From Actinoplanes derwentensis (GTDB lineage: Bacteria > Actinomycetota > Actinomycetes > Mycobacteriales > Micromonosporaceae): a DNA stretch of 64,000 nt. The notes beneath the pieces were generated by a model. That model did not search any database, was not told the origin of the DNA, and saw only the letters and a list, made by a program, of their open reading frames with translations. The stretch is taken from the NCBI RefSeq assembly GCF_900104725.1, contig NZ_LT629758.1, positions 8,208,001-8,272,000 on the forward strand, read 5' to 3'. Position 1 is the first letter of the stretch. Every line of letters begins with the position of its first letter. The position numbers and the translations under genes were made by a program. This document shows, piece by piece, positions 42,569-54,840 of the stretch.

Positions 42569-44620
42569 ATGCAGAAGGTGAGCAGGTTCGCCGTACCCGT
42601 CGGGGTCGTCGGCATCATCCTCATGATGGTCGTTCCCCTCCCGACCTTCCTGCTCGACCTCTTCATCGCCGTGAACATCACGGCCGCCCTACTCGTACTG
42701 CTGATCTCCATGTTCGTCCAGAAACCGCTCGACTTCGCCGTTTTCCCGGCGCTTCTCCTGGTCATGACACTCTTCCGGCTGGCGCTCAACATCAGCGCCA
42801 CCCGTCTGGTGCTGCGGGACGGCGACGCCGGCAAGGTGATCCACGCGTTCGGCAGCTTCGTCGTCGGCGGCAACCTGGTGATCGGCCTGGTGATCTTCTC
42901 GATCCTGGTGATCGTCCAGATGATCGTGGTCACCAAGGGTGCCGAGCGGGTCGCCGAGGTCGGCGCCCGATTCACCCTCGACGCGATGCCCGGCAAGCAG
43001 ATGGCGATCGACGCCGACCTCAACGCCGGCCTGATCGACGACACCGAGGCGAAGAAGCGCCGCGCCGAAGTGGCCTCCGAAGCCGACTTCTACGGCGCCA
43101 TGGACGGTGGTTCCAAGTTCGTCAAGGGCGACGCCATCGCGGCCATCATCATCACGGTGATCAACCTGGTCGGTGGTTTCGCGATCGGCATCCTGCAGGC
43201 CGACATGGCCCCGGTCGACGCGATGAACCACTACAGCATGCTGAGCATCGGCGACGGCCTGGTCTCGCAGATCCCGGCGCTGCTGCTGTCGGTCGCCACC
43301 GGTCTGATCGTGACCCGCTCGGCCACCTCCGGCGACATGGGCACGACCGTCACCACCCAGCTCAGCCAGAACAAACTCGCGCTGCGCATCGGCGGCGGCG
43401 CGGCGCTCTCCCTCTGCATCATCCCCGGTCTGCCGAAGATCCCCTTCCTGCTGGTCGGCACGGCGGTCCTGATGATCGCCCACCGGGTGAAGGAACCGGA
43501 GGAGGCCACCGCCGACGCCGGTGGACCCAAAGCCGCCGCGGACGCCCCGGACCTGCCCGCCCCGGACTCGCCGGAACAACTGCTCGGCGAGATGCGGATC
43601 GATCCGCTCGAACTGGCCCTTGCCCCCGACCTGGTCGACCTGGTCGACCCCGGTAGTGGCGACCTCCTCGACCGGGTCCGCGCCCTGCGCCGCAAGATGG
43701 CCATGGAACTCGGCGTGATCATGCCGCCGGTGCGTACCCGCGACGACCTGGACCTGCCGCTCTCCTCATACGCCATCCGGATCTCCGGGGTCGACGCCGG
43801 CACCGGCCAGGCGCCGCCCGGCACCGTCCTGGCCATCGGTGAGGGACTGCACGCGCTCCCCGGCCGGGCCGGGGTCGAACCGGTCTTCGGCCTGGCCGGC
43901 AAGTGGGTCCCCGCCGAGCTGCACTATCAGGCCGAGATCTCCGGCGCGACGGTGGTGGACCGGGCGTCGGTGATCATCACGCACCTCGCCGAGATCGTCC
44001 GCACCAACGCCAGCCGCCTGCTCGGCCGCGAGGACGTCCGGGCGCTCGCCGACATGGTCAAGCGCACCCACCCGGTCGTCGTCGAGGAGCTGACCCCGGC
44101 GCTGCTGAGCCTCGGCCAGATCCAGAAGGTGCTCCAGGCGCTGCTGGACGAGGGTGTGCCGATCCGCGACCTGGTCCGGATCTTCGAGTCGCTCTCGTTG
44201 CGGGCCAAGGTCACGGTCGACCACGACTCACTCGTCGAGGCGGCGCGCGGCGCCCTCGGCCCGGCCATCGCCGCCCAGTACGCGACCGCCGGCCGGCTCA
44301 CCGTGATCACGCTCGACCCGATGCTCGAGCAGAGCCTGCTCGAATCGCTGCGGCCCAGCGACACCGGCGCTTTCATGGCGATCGACGGCATGCGGGCCGA
44401 GGCGATCGTCAGCGAGTCCGGCCGACTCGCCGAGGCCGCGGAGCAGCAGGGACTCAACCCGGTCCTGGCCTGCTCGCCACAGCTGCGGCTGCCACTGATG
44501 CGACTGCTGCGAGCCGGTTCCCGCCGGATCCAGGTGCTGTCGTACAGCGAAATCTCTGGTTCCACCGCACAGATCGAGACGATAGGGGTGGTGAACGGTG
44601 CCTACGCGGGTGCTGCTTGA
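42569..44620 (+). CDS. flhA: Flagellar export protein FlhA
   Basis: 683 residues. The N-terminal half is the multi-helix membrane domain with LDLFIAVNITAALLVLL, the FHIPEP-like core (RFTLDAMPGKQMAIDADLNAG, key MPGKQMAIDADLN) and the IPALLLSVATGLIVTRS helix. The cytoplasmic half includes HLAEIVRTNASRLLGREDVRAL, which docks chaperone-substrate pairs. It forms the ring of the export gate. The FlhF-like gene overlaps its last 23 bases. Confidence 0.94.
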   Translation: MQKVSRFAVPVGVVGIILMMVVPLPTFLLDLFIAVNITAALLVLLISMFVQKPLDFAVFPALLLVMTLFRLALNISATRLVLRDGDAGKVIHAFGSFVVGGNLVIGLVIFSILVIVQMIVVTKGAERVAEVGARFTLDAMPGKQMAIDADLNAGLIDDTEAKKRRAEVASEADFYGAMDGGSKFVKGDAIAAIIITVINLVGGFAIGILQADMAPVDAMNHYSMLSIGDGLVSQIPALLLSVATGLIVTRSATSGDMGTTVTTQLSQNKLALRIGGGAALSLCIIPGLPKIPFLLVGTAVLMIAHRVKEPEEATADAGGPKAAADAPDLPAPDSPEQLLGEMRIDPLELALAPDLVDLVDPGSGDLLDRVRALRRKMAMELGVIMPPVRTRDDLDLPLSSYAIRISGVDAGTGQAPPGTVLAIGEGLHALPGRAGVEPVFGLAGKWVPAELHYQAEISGATVVDRASVIITHLAEIVRTNASRLLGREDVRALADMVKRTHPVVVEELTPALLSLGQIQKVLQALLDEGVPIRDLVRIFESLSLRAKVTVDHDSLVEAARGALGPAIAAQYATAGRLTVITLDPMLEQSLLESLRPSDTGAFMAIDGMRAEAIVSESGRLAEAAEQQGLNPVLACSPQLRLPLMRLLRAGSRRIQVLSYSEISGSTAQIETIGVVNGAYAGAA

Positions 44621-46121
44621 GGGACCGGCCATCGAGCCGCTGCTGGCTCAGGTCCGCGATGAGTACGGCTCCAGCGTCCGGATCATCTCCGCCGACAAGG
44701 TACGAAGTGGTGGCATCGGGGGCTTCTTCGCGAAGCAGCACTTCGAGCTTTCCGTCGAGGTACCGGATTCAACCGAGGACAGTGATGACATGGCCCAACA
44801 GACCGTTGCCGGTAACGGCGCACAGAACTTCGAGAGTCTGCTCGAGCAGGCGGAATCCCGGGACCGGGTGACCACCGAACGCGGGCCCACCACCGCCGAG
44901 CTACGGTCCCGGCAGGACGGCCGCAACGCCGCACTCGGTGACACCGGGGCCGCGTTCGCCGAGCTGATGGCCGGTCTGGACGTCGCCGGTCACCTCGGCG
45001 AGGGCCGCCCGCCGGCCCGCCACCGCCCGCCCGAGGAGAAGGAGGACACCCCGACGGTGCGCCCGTTCCGCCCGGCGGCGGCCGGTGGTTCCGCGGTCAA
45101 CTCCGGTCAGCAGCGGCCGTTGCCCGCCGCGTTGCCGACGGTGCCGGCCTTCCCGGAGCGCCCGGCGGCCCGGGAACGGGAACGGGAGGCCCTGGAGACC
45201 CGCGAGCCTCGCGAGACCATGACGCCGATCCGTGCGGCGACCGCGTCGCGGGCGGTCACCCCGGCTACCCCGGTCACCCCGTTTCGCACCGCGGAGCCCG
45301 CCGCCGCTCCCATCCGGCCGGGCCGGTCGGCTGCCGAGGTGTACGACGCGGTTCCGGTCTCCCCGGCGCCCGCCGCCGCTCCGGCCCCGGCCCCGGCCGT
45401 CTCGACGAGCCGCGCCGGCGAGCTGGACTCGGTGCAGCGCAACCTGATCACGGTCGGGATGCCGGAGTCGATGGCCCGCAAGATCACCGGTGGGGACACG
45501 TACGCCGGGGTGCTCAGCGTGCTCGCCGCCCGCCCGGCCGCACCCGGCATCCCGGACGGCCCCGGCGAGATCCTGGTGGTAGCCGGTGAGGTGCACACCG
45601 CCGTGTCCATCGGCAAGCACATCCTGGAACAGCTGCACGTGGACCAGACCCACCTGCTCCTGGCCGGGCCGTCCACCGCCGGAACCGGGCTGCACTCGTC
45701 CCGGCTCATCTCCAGCCGCGGCTCGGCCGAGTCCCGGGCGGAGAAGCTGCAGAGCTCCGACCACCCGTGGGTGGTGGTGATCGACGCGCCGGTCGGCGGC
45801 ACCGATCCGTTCTGGGTCAACGACATGTGCGACGCGCTCGGCGCCACCGCGCTCTGGGCCGTCGTCGACGCCACCCGCAAGACCGCCGACACCGCCCGCC
45901 ACCTGCGCAACCTCGGCGACGTCGAGGCGCTCGTGGTGCACAGCGTGGAACTCACCGCCGACCCGGCCTCGGTACTCGGCCTGGACGTGCCGATCTTCTC
46001 GCTGGACGGCAAACCGGCCACCCCGCACGCCTGGGCGGCGATGCTCTGCGCGCGGATCGCGGCCGAGGTGATGCCGCTGGCGGTCATGCCTCGCCGGGTG
46101 ACCCGCTCCGGCCGTCGCTGA
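44598..46121 (+). CDS. FlhF-like protein with a degenerate GTPase domain
   Basis: 507 residues. The first 57 match the FlhF N-terminus (LAQVRDEYGSSVRIISADKV, then GGIGGFFAKQHFELSVEV). A long Pro/Ala/Arg-rich linker (about 60-275) follows. The C-terminal region has the SRP-GTPase layout, but every nucleotide motif is lost: the P-loop position reads ILVVAGEVHTAVSIGKHI without GxxGxGKT, the DTAGR position reads VVIDAPVGGTDPF, and the TKLD position reads VVHSVELT. It follows flhA, where flhF lies in Bacillus, and overlaps it. No flhG was seen. Family assignment is by order and pattern; the loss of GTP binding is read directly. Confidence 0.65.
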   Translation: MPTRVLLEGPAIEPLLAQVRDEYGSSVRIISADKVRSGGIGGFFAKQHFELSVEVPDSTEDSDDMAQQTVAGNGAQNFESLLEQAESRDRVTTERGPTTAELRSRQDGRNAALGDTGAAFAELMAGLDVAGHLGEGRPPARHRPPEEKEDTPTVRPFRPAAAGGSAVNSGQQRPLPAALPTVPAFPERPAAREREREALETREPRETMTPIRAATASRAVTPATPVTPFRTAEPAAAPIRPGRSAAEVYDAVPVSPAPAAAPAPAPAVSTSRAGELDSVQRNLITVGMPESMARKITGGDTYAGVLSVLAARPAAPGIPDGPGEILVVAGEVHTAVSIGKHILEQLHVDQTHLLLAGPSTAGTGLHSSRLISSRGSAESRAEKLQSSDHPWVVVIDAPVGGTDPFWVNDMCDALGATALWAVVDATRKTADTARHLRNLGDVEALVVHSVELTADPASVLGLDVPIFSLDGKPATPHAWAAMLCARIAAEVMPLAVMPRRVTRSGRR

Positions 46122-46136
46122 CCACGGTGCCAGCTG

Positions 46137-46370
46137 ATGATCAAGCCGTCGGTTCTGCTGTTCGCGCTGCTGATCAGCGCGCCGGCCTGGTACCGCCTGC
46201 TCCTGGACGAGGTCGACCTGGTCCAGGTGCTGATCCGGTTCCTGATCGCCGTGCCGATCGCCGCGGTGCTACTGGGCGGGGTCCGGTTCATCCTCGCCGG
46301 ATATCGCAAGGCCGATGAGGAACCGGGATCCGCGGTGACGCCCGAGCCCTACGAGGGCAAGACACCCTGA
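46137..46370 (+). CDS. Small two-helix membrane protein of unknown function
   Basis: 77 residues. Two hydrophobic segments (SVLLFALLISAPAWYRLLL and VLIRFLIAVPIAAVLLGGVRFIL) and a charged tail (YRKADEEPGSAVTPEPYEGKTP). The size and two-helix layout recall FliQ, but the conserved FliQ core (TQIxExTLxFxPK type) is absent and the helices do not match. It begins 15 bases after the FlhF-like stop, so it is probably in the flhA transcript. A 43-bp palindrome follows. Confidence 0.6.
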   Translation: MIKPSVLLFALLISAPAWYRLLLDEVDLVQVLIRFLIAVPIAAVLLGGVRFILAGYRKADEEPGSAVTPEPYEGKTP

Positions 46371-46442: not shown

Positions 46443-48506
46443 TCAGGCCTCGACGTCGACCCGGCCGGTGGACGGGTCGATCCGCCGGGTGGTGACCGGA
46501 GCCGGTTCGGGACCGATGTCCGGGCCCTCCCCGCCGCCGCGACCGCCCCGGCGGCCCAGTGCGTCGGCGAACTGCTGCCGGGTCTGCTCCTGCTGGGCGT
46601 TGCCCTGCCGCAGGTCGAGTGTGCAGTTGCCGAAACCGGAGTCCTCCAGCTCGCGGCGCAGCTCGTCGAGAGCCGAGCGCAGCGCGTCGGTGCCGGCCTC
46701 GGTACCGCCGGTGAGCTGCACCGTGATGTCGCCGTTGCGGATCTCCGCCACCACCTGCACCGGGCCCAGGTCGGCCGGATGCAGGTTCACGGTCAGCCGG
46801 TGCACCCCGTCGGCGTCCAGCTTGAGCGGGATGAGCCGGGTGGCGAGCTGATGGGCGGTGGGAGCCGGGGTGGACGGCGCCGCCGGCGGGGTGGCCTGGA
46901 CGTCGGCGACCGTCGCGGTGGGCGCGGTGGCTTGCGGACCGGTCACTCCGGGCAGGCCGGCGGCCGGTGCGGCTGTCGTAGCGCCGGCCTCGGTGGGCCC
47001 GGCGTCCTGGGGGAGGCCGGTGGGGAACGCGCCGTCCCGCGTACCGGCCGGGGTGTCGCCGCTCTGGCCGCTGCTCGATCTGGCCTGGTCACCCTGCCCG
47101 CCCGCACCGGTTGAACCCGCCTCCGGCCCGCTGCCCGGCGCCACGTCACCCGCCGGTGCCGCCTCCGCGGTGGGTTCGGCGGCCGGAGCGGTCTGCTCCC
47201 GGGCCGCTGGTTCGGTGGTCTCCGCGGTGCTGCGCAGACTCTCCGGGCGGACTGTGGCGGCGGCCTCCTGCGCGGCGGACAGAGCCGGGGCCGGCGCGGT
47301 GTCCGAGGTGCCGGTGGGAGCCGTGGCCGGTGACGCGCCGGCGGCGGAACCCGGCGCGGTGGCCGGACCGGGAGCCGAGGCGGTCGCGGTGCCGCCGAGG
47401 GTCTGGCCGGTGGGTTCGGCGCCGGGTGCGGGGCCGGCCGGGGCCGGCGTGGTGCCGGACCGGTCCGCCGGAGCCGGACCAGCGGCCGGAGCCTGGCCGG
47501 TGGCGGCCTGGCTCGCGGCGGCCTGGCCGGTGACGGTGGTGACGGCGGTGGTGGCCGGTGCGGTCGCCTGGTCGGTGGTCGTCGGCGCCACGTCAGCCGC
47601 TGCCTGCGGTTCCGCCGTCGCGGCAACCGGGGCCGAACCGGTCTCCTGGACCGCGGTCGTCTCGCTGGTCTCGACGGGTACCGGGGCGACCGGCAGAGCG
47701 GCAGTCATCGCGGTGACGGTGGCGGTGTTCTCCGGCTTCGGTTCGGTCTCCACACCATCCTCGGCGACCTGTTGGCCCTCAGCGGTGGCCTTCGTGTCGT
47801 CCTTGGCGGCGGCGCTGTACCGGGCCTCGTCGGTGCGCGGGCCGGTGTGGGTGGGACCGGCCTGCTTCGTGTCACGTCCGGCGTCCGGCCGTCGATCAGC
47901 AGCGCGTTGCTCGCCGGTCCGTTCGGTCGCGGTCCGTGCGGCGGCCCGGTCGGTTCCGGCCCGGTCGGTTCCGGTTCGGGAGGGCTCAGATCGGGAGGAG
48001 TCGGGCCGTGAAGCATCAGGCCGGGAGATGGCGGCCCGTGCGCCGGCGGCCCGCGAGAGAGCAGCCCGATCAGCACCAGCCCGTTCATTCCTGGCGCGTG
48101 AGGCATCGGCCCGAGAAGCATCAGCGCGGGAGGCATCGGCCCGTGCGGTATCAGCGCGGGAGGCATCGACCCGTGAGACCGCGGCCCGGGCGACAGCGGC
48201 CCGGGAAAGCGCGGCCCGGGAAAGCGCGGCACGCGACAGCGCCGCCCGAGAGTCAGCGGCCCGCTCGGCGGCGGCGTCCCGCGCGGCGGACTCCGCCCCG
48301 TGCGCGGCGGCCCGACCAGCTGCTGACCGATCGCCCGGCTCCCGTCCGGAGCCCGGCGAAGAAGCTTTCGGGGAGGACTTGTCGGAGCCGATCTCGGCCG
48401 AGAGCGCCGAACCGAAGTCCGCCGACCCGTCCTCACGCCGCCCACCCGGTTTGCGGGCCGGTTCGGCACCCGGCCGGCGGTCGGGACCCGTCACTGAACT
48501 CGACAT
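46443..48506 (-). CDS. fliK: Flagellar hook-length control protein FliK
   Basis: 687 residues. The C-terminal Flg_hook domain (about 565-640) is recognisable: LKLDADGVHRLTVNLHPADLGPVQVVAEI (key LHPADLGPVQV) and LRSALDELRRELEDSGFGNCTLDL. The remainder is a very long Ala/Pro/Thr-rich arm. Within it, residues 82-187 carry Arg at every fifth position. FliK is secreted, measures the hook and switches FlhB. ATG at 48506 has AGGAG upstream; a longer open frame to 49583 overlaps another gene and is rejected. Nearest upstream gene is the P60/SLT protein. Confidence 0.85.
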   Translation of the reverse strand: MSSSVTGPDRRPGAEPARKPGGRREDGSADFGSALSAEIGSDKSSPKASSPGSGREPGDRSAAGRAAAHGAESAARDAAAERAADSRAALSRAALSRAALSRAAVARAAVSRVDASRADTARADASRADASRADASRARNERAGADRAALSRAAGARAAISRPDASRPDSSRSEPSRTGTDRAGTDRAAARTATERTGEQRAADRRPDAGRDTKQAGPTHTGPRTDEARYSAAAKDDTKATAEGQQVAEDGVETEPKPENTATVTAMTAALPVAPVPVETSETTAVQETGSAPVAATAEPQAAADVAPTTTDQATAPATTAVTTVTGQAAASQAATGQAPAAGPAPADRSGTTPAPAGPAPGAEPTGQTLGGTATASAPGPATAPGSAAGASPATAPTGTSDTAPAPALSAAQEAAATVRPESLRSTAETTEPAAREQTAPAAEPTAEAAPAGDVAPGSGPEAGSTGAGGQGDQARSSSGQSGDTPAGTRDGAFPTGLPQDAGPTEAGATTAAPAAGLPGVTGPQATAPTATVADVQATPPAAPSTPAPTAHQLATRLIPLKLDADGVHRLTVNLHPADLGPVQVVAEIRNGDITVQLTGGTEAGTDALRSALDELRRELEDSGFGNCTLDLRQGNAQQEQTRQQFADALGRRGGRGGGEGPDIGPEPAPVTTRRIDPSTGRVDVEA
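47946..48263. repeat. fliK: Pentapeptide-period repeat inside fliK
   Basis: In the protein, Arg occurs at residues 82, 87, 92 and every fifth residue up to 187 (22 in a row), mostly as AALSR, ADASR and later TDRAG units. In the DNA this shows as a 15-bp period with units such as CGGGAGGCATCGGCC on the plus strand. Confidence 0.85.
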
Positions 48507-48538
48507 GCGGTCTCCTCTGCAACTGGAGTCAGAAAGGT

Positions 48539-49528
48539 TCAGCCGCCGAGCGCGGCCAGGGCCTTCTGCACCTTCGGGACGTAGGCCTGGGTCTCGGCGC
48601 TGGGCGGGATGCCGTTGTGCCGGTGTACCGCGCCACCGCCGGCGTTGTAGGCGGCCAGGGCGAGCGGCACCGTCTTGAACTCGCGCAAGTGCGAGGCGAG
48701 CAGTTTGGCCGCGCCGTTGATCGCCTGCGACGGGTCGAAGGCGTCGTCCACGCCGAGGCCCCGGGCGGTGGCCGGCATCAGCTGCATCAGGCCTTGTGCG
48801 CCGACTTTGCTGACGGCTCGCGGGTCGTAGCCGGATTCGACCTTGGCGACCGCGGCGAGCAGTTTGGGGGAGACCCCGTGTCTGGCGCCGGCTTGTTCGA
48901 ACAGGTCGGCGTAGGGCACACCGGTCAGTCCGGACGTGGAGACGGCGCGCAGTCCGGCCGGGCGCAGTGCCGACATGTCCTGGACGGCGGCGGCCGGAAC
49001 GGTGTCGATCACCCGTCGAATGGCGCTGGGTTTCTCGTACACACTCTGGATCTTGACTTGGTCGCCGGGTTTGGGGGCCGCGATCATCTTGTTGTCGCCC
49101 AGATAGATCGCCACATGGTCGACCGGCGAGTTGAAGGCGAGGATGTCGCCGGGTTTCGCGTCGTCGAGACTGGCGACCGGGCGGCCGGTTTTGGCCTGTT
49201 GCCAGGAGTTGCGGGGCAGGTCGATGCCGAGATCCTTGTAGGCGCGCTGGACCAGGCCGGAGCAGTCGAGTCCTCTGCCGGGGTCGGTGCCGCCGAAGAC
49301 GTACGGCGTACCCAGGTATTTCTTGGCCGCCGCGACGACGTCTCCGCCGCTGGTCCCGGCGGCGCCCGCGGTGCCGGTACCCGGTCCGGCGACGCTGGCC
49401 AGTGCGGAGGCGAACGTGGTACCCGAGGTACCACCGGCCGCCGATGTCGAGGCCGGGGCCGGATTGAGCCCGAGCCTCTCCTGCAGTTCGGAGATGCGGG
49501 ACATGACTCCGGTGACGCCCATGCTCAT
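48539..49528 (-). CDS. Bifunctional NlpC/P60 peptidase and lytic transglycosylase, flagellar
   Basis: 329 residues. After a linker of about 60 residues comes an NlpC/P60 domain (VVAAAKKYLGTPYVFGG, catalytic Cys in DCSGLVQRAY, His in VDHVAIYLGD), then a goose-lysozyme-like SLT domain (catalytic Glu in VAKVESGYDPRAV, then GAQGLMQLMPATARGLG, and AAYNAGGGAV). Joining two wall-cutting activities in one gene between fliJ and fliK suggests it opens peptidoglycan for the rod and hook, the role FlgJ has in proteobacteria. No signal peptide is seen, so export may go through the flagellar gate. The start overlaps fliJ (ATGA). Confidence 0.88.
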   Translation of the reverse strand: MSMGVTGVMSRISELQERLGLNPAPASTSAAGGTSGTTFASALASVAGPGTGTAGAAGTSGGDVVAAAKKYLGTPYVFGGTDPGRGLDCSGLVQRAYKDLGIDLPRNSWQQAKTGRPVASLDDAKPGDILAFNSPVDHVAIYLGDNKMIAAPKPGDQVKIQSVYEKPSAIRRVIDTVPAAAVQDMSALRPAGLRAVSTSGLTGVPYADLFEQAGARHGVSPKLLAAVAKVESGYDPRAVSKVGAQGLMQLMPATARGLGVDDAFDPSQAINGAAKLLASHLREFKTVPLALAAYNAGGGAVHRHNGIPPSAETQAYVPKVQKALAALGG

Positions 49529-49968
49529 GCCTCACCCCGGCTTCCGGCGGCGTTGCGCGCCTTGGCGGAGATCGCCAGTTCATCCAGGTTCGACTGGTCG
49601 GTGCTCAGGTCGTGGGCCTTGACGGTGGCGGCGTGCCGTTCGGCCATGAGTTCCACGGCACGCCGTCGTTTCGCTGCGTCGGAGAGGACGGCCATACGTT
49701 CCCGCTCGACCTCTTCTGCTTCGGTCACCATGCGTTGCGCGCCGAAGACGCCGGCCGCGATGGACTGGCGGGCGGCGATGGCGGCGACCATCGCCCGGGC
49801 GGTGCCCTCGGTCGGCGCCTCAGCGCCCATCAGGGACAGTTTGCGGCGTTTCAGCAGGGCTTCGGCTTCCCGGATCTCGGCTCGGGACTGGATCACGGCG
49901 CCCTTGGCGGCGTCCTCCTGTGCCTTGCGTGCGCGCAGGACGGGCGCCAGTCGGAAGAAGCGGTTCAC
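49525..49968 (-). CDS. fliJ: Flagellar export chaperone FliJ
   Basis: 147 residues, helical coiled coil: RFFRLAPVLRARKAQEDAAKGAV, EIREAEALLKRRK, and a long C-terminal helix. This fits FliJ, the central stalk of the FliI-FliH ATPase complex. Start GTG at 49968 with GGAGG 6 bases upstream. It is separated from fliI by 236 bases with their own promoter signal, and it leads a three-gene unit fliJ, P60/SLT, fliK. Confidence 0.85.
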   Translation of the reverse strand: MNRFFRLAPVLRARKAQEDAAKGAVIQSRAEIREAEALLKRRKLSLMGAEAPTEGTARAMVAAIAARQSIAAGVFGAQRMVTEAEEVERERMAVLSDAAKRRRAVELMAERHAATVKAHDLSTDQSNLDELAISAKARNAAGSRGEA

Positions 49969-51532: not shown

Positions 51533-52201
51533 TCAGAGGCGCAGTGCTTCGCGGGCCCGGCTCACCGCTGAGGCGATGGTGGCGTCCACGGTCGCGGTGC
51601 CGGTTTCGGCGACCGCGTCCCCGGGCTGGAGACCGGGGTCGGGGCGCAGCCTGATCCGCCGGCCCTCGAAGTCGAAGTCCTCGCCGGAGCCCTCGCCGAC
51701 CAGGTTGCGGTAGTCGTCCGGGTGCAGGTTGACGACCATCGCGCCGTGTTCGGGGGTGGCCGCCATGGCCCGGCGGAGCCCGTCGGCGCCGCGGTCGGGG
51801 TCGTCGCGCAGGTGCCGGCCGATGATCGCCTCGGCCAGGTCCCAGGCGCTGGCGAGCACGACCTCCTGCAGTTCGGTGAAGGTGGGCATGAGCTGGTTCT
51901 CCAGCTCGGTGACGGCCCGGCCGAGAGCGTTGACGGCGCTGTTCAGGGCAGCGCTCCGGTGCCGCTCGTGCGCCTCGGCGGTGGCGACGGCCCGGGCCGC
52001 GGCGGCTTCGGAGGCATCGGCGGCGTCCCGTTTGCCTTGGGCCCAGCCTTCGGCGTAACCAGTGGTCCGGGCATCCTGCCGGGCTTTCGCGGTGGCTTTG
52101 GTGTCGATCGGGGTGTCGTGCCGCAGGTCGACGGCGAACTGCGCGGCGGCGGCGTTATCGGCCGCCACCCCACGCAGCACCCGGTCAGGCGATGAGCTCA
52201 T
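51533..52201 (-). CDS. fliH: Flagellar export regulator FliH
   Basis: 222 residues. An N-terminal variable part, a coiled-coil middle with the FliH-like glycine/alanine stretch (GYAEGWAQGKRDAADASEAAAARAVATAEA, key GYAEGWAQGKRD), and the C-terminal alpha/beta domain (VVLASAWDLAEAIIGRHLRDD, MVVNLHPDDYRNLV, LRPDPGLQPGDAVAET). It binds FliI and anchors it to the C-ring. The start overlaps the fliG stop by 17 bases. Confidence 0.85.
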   Translation of the reverse strand: MSSSPDRVLRGVAADNAAAAQFAVDLRHDTPIDTKATAKARQDARTTGYAEGWAQGKRDAADASEAAAARAVATAEAHERHRSAALNSAVNALGRAVTELENQLMPTFTELQEVVLASAWDLAEAIIGRHLRDDPDRGADGLRRAMAATPEHGAMVVNLHPDDYRNLVGEGSGEDFDFEGRRIRLRPDPGLQPGDAVAETGTATVDATIASAVSRAREALRL

Positions 52202-53210
52202 CGACGTCCCCGCCACGCTGGATCTCGATCTGTCCGGAGTCCTCGAGCGTGCGGATGACCCCGACGATCTTGGCCTGGGCCTCCTCGACCATCTTGACCT
52301 TGACCGGGCCGAGCAGGTCCATCTCTTCGAGCAGGTTCTCCCGGCCGCGTTCGGAGAGGTTCCGGGTGACCTTGTCGCGCACGCCCTCGGGTACACCCTT
52401 GAGCGCGCAGGCCAGGTCGGCCGGCTCCACCTGGCGCAGGATGAGCTGCACCGCGCGGTCTTCCAGGTTGATGATGTCCTCGAACATGAACATCCGGCGC
52501 CGGATCTCCTCGGCGAGTTCCGGGGAACGCGCGTCGAGCGCCTCCAGGATGAGGCGCTCGGTGGTGCGGTCGGCCCGGTTGATGATTTCGACGAGTGGTG
52601 CCAGACCACCGACCGTGGAGAGTTCGTCCGGCTGCAGGACGCTGGACAGCTTGCGCTGCAGGGCCGTCTCGACCTGGCGGATGATGTCCGGCGAGGTGCG
52701 GTCCATGATCGCGATCCGGTGCGCGACCTCGGTCTGCACCTCGATCGGGAGACCGGCCAGGATCGAAGATGCCAGCGCTGAGGGGATGTGCGCCAGGACC
52801 AGGGCGATCGTCTGCGGGTGTTCGTACTGTACGTAGGAGAGCAGTTGCCGCGGGTCCGCGTGGCTGAGGAAGTTGAACGGGATGTCGTTCATCGACGCTT
52901 CGAGCCGGTCGAGGATCAGCGCCGCCCGCTCCTTGCCGAGCGACGCCTCCAGCAGTTCCCGCGCGTAGTCCATGCCACCCGACCCGGCGTATCGGGTGGT
53001 GGCCATGGCATAGAACTCGTCCATCACGTCATCGACCTGGATGTGGTCGAGTTTGCCCAGCCGAGCCACTTCGGCGGAGAGCAGCTCCACCTCTTTCTCG
53101 GTCATGTTCGCCATGACCTCGGCGGCCTGTTCCTTGCCGAACTGCACCAGCATGATCGCGGCCTTGCGGATACCGGTCATGGAGGTCGTGCTGAGCGCCG
53201 GTGTTGTCAA
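52185..53210 (-). CDS. fliG: Flagellar motor switch protein FliG
   Basis: 341 residues of the three-domain FliG: TGIRKAAIMLVQFGKEQAAEVM at the N-terminus, YVQYEHPQTIALVLAHI with the EHPQT motif in the middle, and the C-terminal torque domain MFMFEDIINLEDRAVQLILRQV with the charged residues that contact MotA (KVKMVEEAQAKIVGVIRTLE). It connects FliF to the C-ring. fliF is 17 bases upstream. Confidence 0.95.
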   Translation of the reverse strand: MTTPALSTTSMTGIRKAAIMLVQFGKEQAAEVMANMTEKEVELLSAEVARLGKLDHIQVDDVMDEFYAMATTRYAGSGGMDYARELLEASLGKERAALILDRLEASMNDIPFNFLSHADPRQLLSYVQYEHPQTIALVLAHIPSALASSILAGLPIEVQTEVAHRIAIMDRTSPDIIRQVETALQRKLSSVLQPDELSTVGGLAPLVEIINRADRTTERLILEALDARSPELAEEIRRRMFMFEDIINLEDRAVQLILRQVEPADLACALKGVPEGVRDKVTRNLSERGRENLLEEMDLLGPVKVKMVEEAQAKIVGVIRTLEDSGQIEIQRGGDVDELIA

Positions 53211-53226: not shown

Positions 53227-54840
53227 TCAGCGGTTGGCCGCGTCGGCGGAGATCCAGCTGCGGATCAGGGTCGCGGTCTCTTCGGGCTTCTCCCGGACCA
53301 GGTCCTCGATCTCGCGGTGTCTCTCCTCTCGCGCCTCGTCAGACCTATCGGCAAGTTCCGGCATTTCCAGCGCGTGAGCGTGAATCACGTCCACCTCGGC
53401 CGCCCGCTGGGCCTCCAGGGCCGCCTGCATCTCCTCCAGGTGACGCCGTTCCTCGTCGGTCAGCTGCTGCTGGCGCTTCTTGGAGCGGCGGTTCGCCCGC
53501 CAAGCCAGGTAGATCAACATCAGGACCACGAACAACAGGGCGCCGGTCTGGATCAGCTTGGTCTGTTTGGCCGACGCGTCGGCCTTGGTCGCCGCTTCCA
53601 GCTCCGCCTTGGCCGCCTGAGCCTGGGTGTTGTCGAACGGCATCGCGGCGACCGCGATGGTGTCGCCCCGGGTCGGGTCGATCCCGGCGGCGGCGGCGAT
53701 CAACTGCTGCACCTGGTTCGGGTCGACCGAGCCGGCCACCGTGCTGTCCAGCAGGACCGACACGTTGAGCCGTTTGATACCGCCGGGTGCGGCCCGCCGG
53801 ACCTCCTGCGTCTCGTTGAAGAGGCGGGTCCGGGTCTCGTTCTTCTGCTGATACTGCCCGTTACCGGTGCCGTTGGGCACCTGGACGTTGTCCGGTCCGA
53901 GCACGCCACCCGACCCCGGGCCGCCGGTGCCGTTGTACGTCTCGCTCTGGATGTTCTCCTGCGCGGCCGGCATCGCCGGGTCGGCGGCGTACGTCTTCTT
54001 GGTGGTCTCGGTCTGGTCGAAGTCCAGGGTCGGGGTGGTGGTGACCACCGCGTGTCCCGGTCCGACCAGGTTGTCGAGCATCCGCTGCAGCGAGGAGTTC
54101 AGCCGGCTCTGGAACGTCGCGGTCTGCTGGTCGTTGCCGCCGTCCACGCTGCCCGAACCGACCGAGTTGCCGCCACCGGTGGAGAGCATCCGGCCGTCCG
54201 ACCCGGCGACCGTGACCTGAGTGGGATCGAGCCCTTCGACGCTCGACGCGACCAGGTGCACGATCGACTGCACCTGCTGCTGGTCGAGCGGATTGGTGGA
54301 CTTCGAGGCGACCAGTACCGACGCGGTCGGTTTCGACGCGTCGTCGGAGAAGACGTCCTCCTTGGGCATCACCAAGTGCACGGTCGCGGCCTCGACACCG
54401 TCGATCGCCTTGATCGTGTTGGACAGCTCGCCCTCCAGCGCCCGCTGGTAGTTGGCGTGCTGCATGAAGTCACTGGTGGTGATGCCCTGCTGGTCCAGCA
54501 GCGAATAGCCGGTGTCCTCGTCGTTGGGCAGGCCCTCGCCGGAGAGCTGGAGCCGGAGCTGGTTCACGTCATCGCGCGGCACCAGGATGGTCGCGCCCTC
54601 GTTGGCCAGCTCGTACGAGGTGCCGGCCTTCTGCAACGACTCGACGATGGCGCTGGCGTCCTTGGTGGACAGATTGTTGAAGAGGATCTGGTAGGACGGC
54701 TTGGCCGCCCAGACGGCGAAGAAATAACCGCCGACGGAGAGCGCGAGAACCGCGAACACGGTGACAGCCTTCTGGCCCGGTGTGAAGGACCTGAAGGTGT
54801 CCGTGACGCGGCGTACCGGAGCGGGAAGGCGATCGGTCAT
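53227..54840 (-). CDS. fliF: Flagellar MS-ring protein FliF
   Basis: 537 residues. Two membrane helices (VTVFAVLALSVGGYFFAV near the N-terminus and LIQTGALLFVVLMLIYLAWRAN near 440) enclose the periplasm-side ring domains (YQILFNNLSTKDASAIVESL, MQHANYQRALEGELSNTI, VHLVMPKEDVF). The C-terminal tail (ELADRSDEAREERHREIEDLVREKPEETATLIRSWI, key KPEETATLIRSWI) binds FliG. Founding ring of the basal body. fliE is directly upstream. Confidence 0.95.
   Translation of the reverse strand: MTDRLPAPVRRVTDTFRSFTPGQKAVTVFAVLALSVGGYFFAVWAAKPSYQILFNNLSTKDASAIVESLQKAGTSYELANEGATILVPRDDVNQLRLQLSGEGLPNDEDTGYSLLDQQGITTSDFMQHANYQRALEGELSNTIKAIDGVEAATVHLVMPKEDVFSDDASKPTASVLVASKSTNPLDQQQVQSIVHLVASSVEGLDPTQVTVAGSDGRMLSTGGGNSVGSGSVDGGNDQQTATFQSRLNSSLQRMLDNLVGPGHAVVTTTPTLDFDQTETTKKTYAADPAMPAAQENIQSETYNGTGGPGSGGVLGPDNVQVPNGTGNGQYQQKNETRTRLFNETQEVRRAAPGGIKRLNVSVLLDSTVAGSVDPNQVQQLIAAAAGIDPTRGDTIAVAAMPFDNTQAQAAKAELEAATKADASAKQTKLIQTGALLFVVLMLIYLAWRANRRSKKRQQQLTDEERRHLEEMQAALEAQRAAEVDVIHAHALEMPELADRSDEAREERHREIEDLVREKPEETATLIRSWISADAANR

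Follow-up and report, generated by a model that had tools for sequence, protein, structure and literature searches.

The flagellar protein FlhF is a signal recognition particle (SRP)-type GTPase that has been taken to run on a GTP cycle set off by FlhG, and a DQAxxLR helix of FlhG is reported to stimulate FlhF (PMC12826062). In Pseudomonas, flagellar assembly is reported to be supported by the B- and N-domains of FlhF and polar placement to come from its G-domain (PMC12713375), and the stability of FliG in E. coli required FlhF alongside it (PMC11236974). In a 2023 survey, the classes without FlgF and FlgG (Acidimicrobiia, Nitriliruptoria and Actinomycetia) are also without FlhF, and FlgFG are placed as lost in the common ancestor of the three (PMC10746217). 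Actinoplanes spores have been described with polar or peritrichous flagella in passages that make no mention of FlhF (PMC3569393). A search of titles and abstract openings, with most subscription journals outside its coverage, found no report of an FlhF without GTP motifs. The present analysis concerns a 64,000-nucleotide stretch of the genome of the soil bacterium Actinoplanes derwentensis (contig NZ_LT629758.1, positions 8,208,001 to 8,272,000), here called the window, and within it the 507-aa product of the gene that follows flhA (44598..46121, + strand). This product is predicted to be a conserved, lineage-wide pseudo-GTPase form of FlhF, which corrects the published absence call.

The gene has a GTG start and was identified from its open reading frame (ORF), a match to the NCBIfam FlhF model TIGR03499 and profile comparison. 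Its first 58 residues (44598..44771, +) are predicted to form the FliG-interaction domain (FID), the head of the B-domain. The TIGR03499 match is restricted to residues 9–94 (E = 2.3e-6) and its 27.8 bits fall well under the curated cut-off of 174.15, by which the protein would not be counted as FlhF. Among 49 homologues, 46 match TIGR03499 and no other NCBIfam model (E ≤ 0.001). A profile of the FID aligned to the canonical FlhF N-terminus with a probability of 98.0 (E = 2.6e-13), and by this predicted domain the protein does belong with FlhF. Residues 59–274 (44772..45419, +) form a linker as judged by composition and lower conservation, with Pro and Ala making up 33% of 216 residues compared to 14% and 20% of the flanking domains. 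A Pfam P5CR_dimer match across residues 58–107 (E = 0.013, under its cut-off) was discarded as chance.

The remaining domain (residues 275–495; 45420..46082, +) is best described as a pseudo-NG domain, a former SRP-type GTPase. An alignment of 49 pseudo copies, picked from 196 listed proteins (A3), was compared with an alignment of six canonical, f72 and intermediate FlhF proteins (A5). In this single hhalign comparison the two profiles matched over 211 columns with a probability of 99.0 (E = 3.3e-18); a control of A3 against FlhG gave a probability of 0.2. A second, larger alignment of 109 pseudo copies, A3 members included, scored 62 against 15 canonical-type FlhF proteins, 42 against intermediate FlhF and 36 against eight FtsY/Ffh sequences (probability 41.6), with controls of 12.5 for FlhG, 14.2 for FlhA and 13.9 for canonical FlhF with the profile reversed. 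When gap-rich columns were removed from this second pair, the score of 48.8 was not reached by any of 200 block-shuffled alignments (mean 19.1, maximum 27.3). Across ten chosen proteins, Pfam SRP54 scores fall from 157.7 bits through 145.4, 81.4, 42.4, 32.3 and 22.7 to 16.2 and then to no match in three pseudo copies. From sequence profiles alone, it is clear that the C-terminal domain descends from the NG (SRP-GTPase) domain of FlhF. A single-sequence search of the 507-aa protein against the PDB returned one match, which was judged to be chance.

The translation contains AGEVHTAVSIGK, VVIDAPVGG and VVHSVELT, and two profile alignments place these at the lost P-loop site (45582..45617, +), the former G3 (45783..45800, +; DAPVGG for DTAGR) and the former G4 (45933..45956, +; VVHSVELT for FTKLDET), respectively. 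Between the last two lies a retained motif, ATRKTAD (45870..45890, +), which corresponds to the canonical T-T-K-x-x-D and whose Lys and Asp are kept in 77 and 81 of 88 aligned pseudo copies. In the A3/A5 alignment, the P-loop GPTGGGKTTT faces GEVH-----T with five P-loop residues, including the Lys and Thr, in the gap; thus, the SIGK lysine does not correspond to the original P-loop lysine. hhalign kept 88 of 109 pseudo rows and 12 of 15 canonical-type rows in a merged version of the second alignment. There, the P-loop Lys is present in all 12 canonical rows and mostly replaced by Leu or Val in the pseudo rows, and the Thr column that follows is empty in 88 of 88 pseudo rows, with a gap of one residue. 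The size of the P-loop gap therefore varies with the alignment, and the loss of the Lys and Thr does not. P-loop, DTAG and TKxDE patterns were found in none of 29 Actinoplanes copies (one of 30, L014, was left out as it has no start), and since the same absence recurs in 29 of 29, the loss is more than chance. The P-loop was likewise absent from all 49 A3 members and from all 69 full-length named copies, those of Cellulomonas, Frigoribacterium, Planobispora, Acidimicrobiia and Nitriliruptorales among them (11 truncated loci of 80, Kineococcus included, were left out of the count). Judged by its G1 P-loop, G3 DTAGR and G4 TKxD, the protein would thus not be placed with FlhF. A preliminary description of this DNA had proposed an FlhF-type N-terminus after flhA, a long Pro/Ala linker, the order of an SRP GTPase domain and replacement of the P-loop, DTAGR and TKLD; each agrees with the ORF, composition and profile alignments given here, with DAPVGG falling at DTAGR and VHSVELT at TKLDET. 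Its account of the P-loop site is refined in one respect, in that the SIGK lysine is no remnant of the P-loop.

This form is widespread. Within the genus, all 36 genomes have a match, including that of the window. Of 24 relatives belonging to other families in the order, 8 were found to have FlhA, and 7 of these match the pseudo-flhF protein; the eighth (G044) has a shrunken remnant of 295 aa (L332) with a degraded FID directly after flhA. In the 16 relatives where FlhA was not identified, the sole match is weak and partial (G058; E = 7.4e-4, 75 residues). From named genomes, the best 80 of 121 confirmed loci were taken; these span Micromonospora, Couchioplanes, Catenuloplanes, Planobispora, Planomonospora, Cellulomonas, Actinotalea, Kineococcus, Quadrisphaera, Sanguibacter, Frigoribacterium, Cryobacterium, Acidimicrobiia, Nitriliruptorales and others, and in 80 of 80 loci flhA lies no more than 200 bp upstream, the neighborhood expected of flhF. 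A 418 kb Pseudarthrobacter plasmid (NZ_CP061722.1, 293639–293812) encodes, at a gene annotated as FlhA, an FID that belongs to this family, pointing to plasmid-borne flagellar genes, and a metagenome-assembled genome labelled Proteobacteria (L268), perhaps misbinned, has a copy that resembles the Cellulomonas and Actinotalea ones and adjoins flhA.

For a census of the phylum, the DNA after flhA was taken and the next gene read in the 63 of 396 sampled genomes in which FlhA was found, with the tally made by family. Canonical FlhF followed in 14 (f62, f64, f76). Four belonged to f72, three with the P-loop and TKxD (one of these without the DTAGR pattern) and one truncated. Another 14 were intermediate, including G659, which stops short of the domain and was placed by family, and 23 were without a P-loop, with the truncated G450, G490 and G509 and the unread G664 likewise placed by family. 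Among full-length copies (G618 of f72, the intermediates G659, G671 and G676, and the four P-loop-less genomes just named being left out), the P-loop was present in 14/14 canonical, 3/3 f72, 11/11 intermediate and 0/19 P-loop-less proteins, DTAG in 14/14, 2/3, 0/11 and 0/19, and TKxDE in 14/14, 3/3, 5/11 and 0/19. G671 and G676 also have the P-loop. Flagellated Actinomycetota outside the P-loop-less group thus carry either an intact FlhF or one with the P-loop and an eroded G3. The flhF-derived gene has stayed after flhA in most genomes examined, so changed that ordinary searches miss it. TIGR03499 matched 295 of 296 class genomes and none over its cut-off, a result which says little on the pseudo form as these matches are taken for FtsY, Ffh and their kin. 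The A3 profile matched 34 of 70 genomes (63 from the census and 7 order relatives) and did not pick up shorter copies of the Acidimicrobiia type that were read beside flhA; a miss with this profile therefore does not prove absence.

A FlhA tree was built from 86 rows (61 census genomes, 7 order relatives and 18 of the 80 named loci), with those lacking a whole FlhA, such as G628, left out and rows with a truncated FlhF (such as G659, G490, G509, G450, G664, L299 and L315) assigned the state found in their family or closest relatives. The 47 P-loop-less rows and 3 gene-absent rows, 50 in all, form one side of a branch with an SH-aLRT of 100. A second tree under a mixture model (75 rows, near-copies and one long branch removed) also required one change for the P-loop split. 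Acidimicrobiia, Nitriliruptorales and genera of Actinomycetia are among the named rows on the P-loop-less side. The two trees come from quick searches in which the root was not inferred, and the P-loop-less side is considered derived because of the species order in PMC10746217. The state in which all motifs are intact requires at least two changes. The simplest account would be a single loss of the motifs in the ancestor shared by Acidimicrobiia, Nitriliruptoria and Actinomycetia.

A profile for FlhG was made from seven FlhG genes that adjoin canonical flhF (these seven match by construction) and applied at E ≤ 1e-20. FlhG was detected in 13 of the 70 genomes, all 13 with canonical FlhF. The one remaining genome of the 14 with canonical FlhF (G679) has a completeness of 77%, and its contig stops shortly after flhF. 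No match at this threshold was found in f72, intermediate or P-loop-less genomes of the 70 (the 80 named loci lay outside this search), nor in the genome of the window, which in terms of a partner would again set its protein apart from FlhF. The f72 FlhF keeps its P-loop and TKxD in genomes in which no FlhG was found at the same threshold, and the distribution as a whole fits FlhG having been lost first. With the FlgG model TIGR02488, 20 of the 70 genomes score above the cut-off and no P-loop-less genome is among them; weaker matches, which reach as much as 226 bits in one P-loop-less genome, were obtained in 66 of 70 and are taken for FlgE and its kin. This result agrees with the published loss of FlgF/FlgG and is no proof of it. 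With respect to the preliminary description, the partnership of FlhF with FlhG seems to have gone from this lineage. Of its GTP-independent scaffold on spores, an FlhF-derived pseudo-GTPase, most likely GTP-free in its working, is supported, and the tie to spores was rejected on account of taxonomic spread: P-loop-less relatives follow flhA in genera such as Cellulomonas and Frigoribacterium, not known to be sporangial, and in Acidimicrobiia and Nitriliruptorales, so the motif change seems older than zoospores.

Taken together, it is probable that the flhF gene itself persists in its ancestral place after flhA with an NG domain that lost its GTP-binding motifs, most simply once, and that basal-body start-up is limited in some other way. 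With FlhG gone there would be neither GTPase stimulation nor GTP-driven release, hence the need for another limit. Most likely, the FlhF-derived protein serves as a nucleotide-independent tether or chaperone of FliG, a scaffold role that is plausible from the literature on the FID and FliG. The FID would sit on FliG, as suggested by homology to the Shewanella FID, a flexible linker would join it to the pseudo-NG domain, and the latter, from its conservation, would act as a dimer or as an anchor to a landmark. Lacking both a GTP step and FlhG, the protein would be a fixed tether and not a switch. That FlhF was not lost but converted a single time to a pseudo-GTPase after FlhG had gone, and was kept as a GTP-free tether of FliG, is judged slightly better than an even proposition. 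If true, flagellar start-up in Acidimicrobiia, Nitriliruptoria and Actinomycetia would proceed with no nucleotide switch of the FlhF/FlhG kind, and the surviving forms, graded from intact without FlhG through P-loop and no DTAG to no P-loop, outline an order of decay. Such a series allows the order of partner loss and motif decay to be studied, and a natural motif-less FlhF separates tether from switch function. A role for FlhF without GTP binding becomes directly testable, for example in Actinoplanes missouriensis.

A number of observations weigh against this interpretation. The FID match to the FlhF FID structure (PDB: 9en1), which was the sole PDB profile match up to E = 1, is not significant alone (E = 0.48). 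The 109-copy alignment reached a probability of only 67.8 against intermediate FlhF alone, and the Acidimicrobiia-type C-terminal domain could not be linked directly to canonical FlhF (score 13) and was linked only weakly to the Actinomycetia domain (score 36.4, shuffled maximum 35.6, 0/100 as high). A DTAG string occurs somewhere in the protein in 1 of 49 (P0172) and 1 of 69 (L264) copies. The association of FlhG with the GTPase is a single event on the tree; with one independent pair it is underpowered as a statistical correlation, and that use of it was rejected. Reading the gene after flhA gave no FlhF in 8 of the 63 census genomes, namely five of f63 (G395, G564, G574, G621, G699), G105, G195 and G425, and the pseudo profile had no match genome-wide in any of the eight; the contig ends within about 0.7 kb of flhA in G574, G621 and G699. 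Absence in some flagellated relatives, or shrinkage as in G044, suggests that the gene is dispensable for having flagellar genes. Finally, a polar landmark partner is putative.

The strongest alternative is that the protein is a decaying remnant in which only the FID matters, as a chaperone or initiator of FliG, with the pseudo-NG domain reduced to a passive tail that is in the process of being lost. The reduced C-terminal domain of Acidimicrobiia-type copies and G044 is what such decay would produce, no copy was found in G105 and G195 within the class, and in E. coli FliG is described as unstable unless FlhF accompanies it (PMC11236974). Against this, the pseudo-NG domains of 11 Actinoplanes pairs are 70–93% identical to that of the window. 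The ratios of nonsynonymous to synonymous substitution (dN/dS, Nei-Gojobori) were 0.06–0.13 for the FID, 0.11–0.54 for the pseudo-NG domain and 0.24–0.72 for the linker, an order that held in 11 of 11 pairs; as dS is only approximate at high GC content, the ranking is what can be relied on. All three regions thus appear to be under purifying selection within Actinoplanes. The T[TR]K..D motif and the end of the domain are also conserved across families, and the remnant explanation is considered unlikely, though it deserves to be kept in mind. Much less probable is a GTPase or ATPase that binds nucleotide by way of other residues in a re-invented pocket. Conservation of the domain and its NG-like order would favor such a pocket; however, the pattern [AG]xxxxGK[ST] is absent from 29, 49, 69 and 19 scanned proteins (sets that partly overlap), none of 88 rows has a residue in the G1 Thr column, and Lys is not among the five most frequent residues of the G1 Lys column, which together account for 82 of 88 rows. 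The window protein matches no NTPase family in Pfam (E ≤ 1), and in NCBIfam the 49 copies match only FlhF. A looser P-loop pattern, GPAVTGKA in L308, ends in Ala and was discarded, the stricter pattern finding none. Fusion of an unrelated domain to the FlhF FID can be set aside as highly improbable, for although the pseudo copies tried in plain sequence searches of Pfam and the PDB gave no direct match to SRP GTPases, the controlled profile comparisons and the graded SRP54 intermediates (157.7 to 16.2 bits to none) connect the two.

The pseudo-GTPase form of FlhF lies in a flagellar gene cluster on a genome of a single contig (10.65 Mb), and its nearest named protein is from Actinoplanes couchii (89% identity). 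Ahead of it on the same strand are motA, motB, fliL, fliM, fliN, fliO, fliP, fliR, flhB and flhA, the last of which (42569..44620, +; FHIPEP match, E = 1.7e-246) shares 23 nt with the 507-aa ORF. Farther along on the opposite strand are fliK, fliI, fliH, fliG (52185..53210, −), the expected partner of the FID, and fliF (53227..54840, −), which encodes the MS ring. Directly 3′ of pseudo-flhF is a putative membrane protein of 76 aa (46140–46370, +). In 13 named loci searched for a small membrane ORF at this position, Couchioplanes (L258) has a clear relative 3 bp 3′ of pseudo-flhF, the pick in L265 is unrelated and 11 have none; the ORF directly after flhA in G105, where no FlhF was read, resembles the 76-aa protein by eye. 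Facing the flhA operon is a 1046-aa ORF (46443–49583, −) that carries a FliK C-terminal domain and is very long for a hook-length protein.

Compared to known systems, Ffh and FtsY are distant NG-domain kin of the pseudo form and differ in having no FID. Both are working GTPases of protein targeting. The intermediate FlhF proteins of other Actinomycetota (f73, f79, f93, f97, f107, f110) share with it an FID and NG domain after flhA and no detected FlhG, and differ in that, among full-length copies, the P-loop is kept in 11 of 11, DTAG is lost in 11 of 11 and TKxDE is present in 5 of 11. Relative to FlhF itself (TIGR03499; PDB: 2px0, 8r9r; FID, 9en1), the pseudo form is without G1, G3 and G4, its P-loop Lys and Thr are gone, no FlhG was found and it scores far under the cut-off of the FlhF model. 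What it shares with FlhF is its place after flhA, the FID, the linker, the NG-derived C-terminal domain and the T-T/R-K-x-x-D motif.

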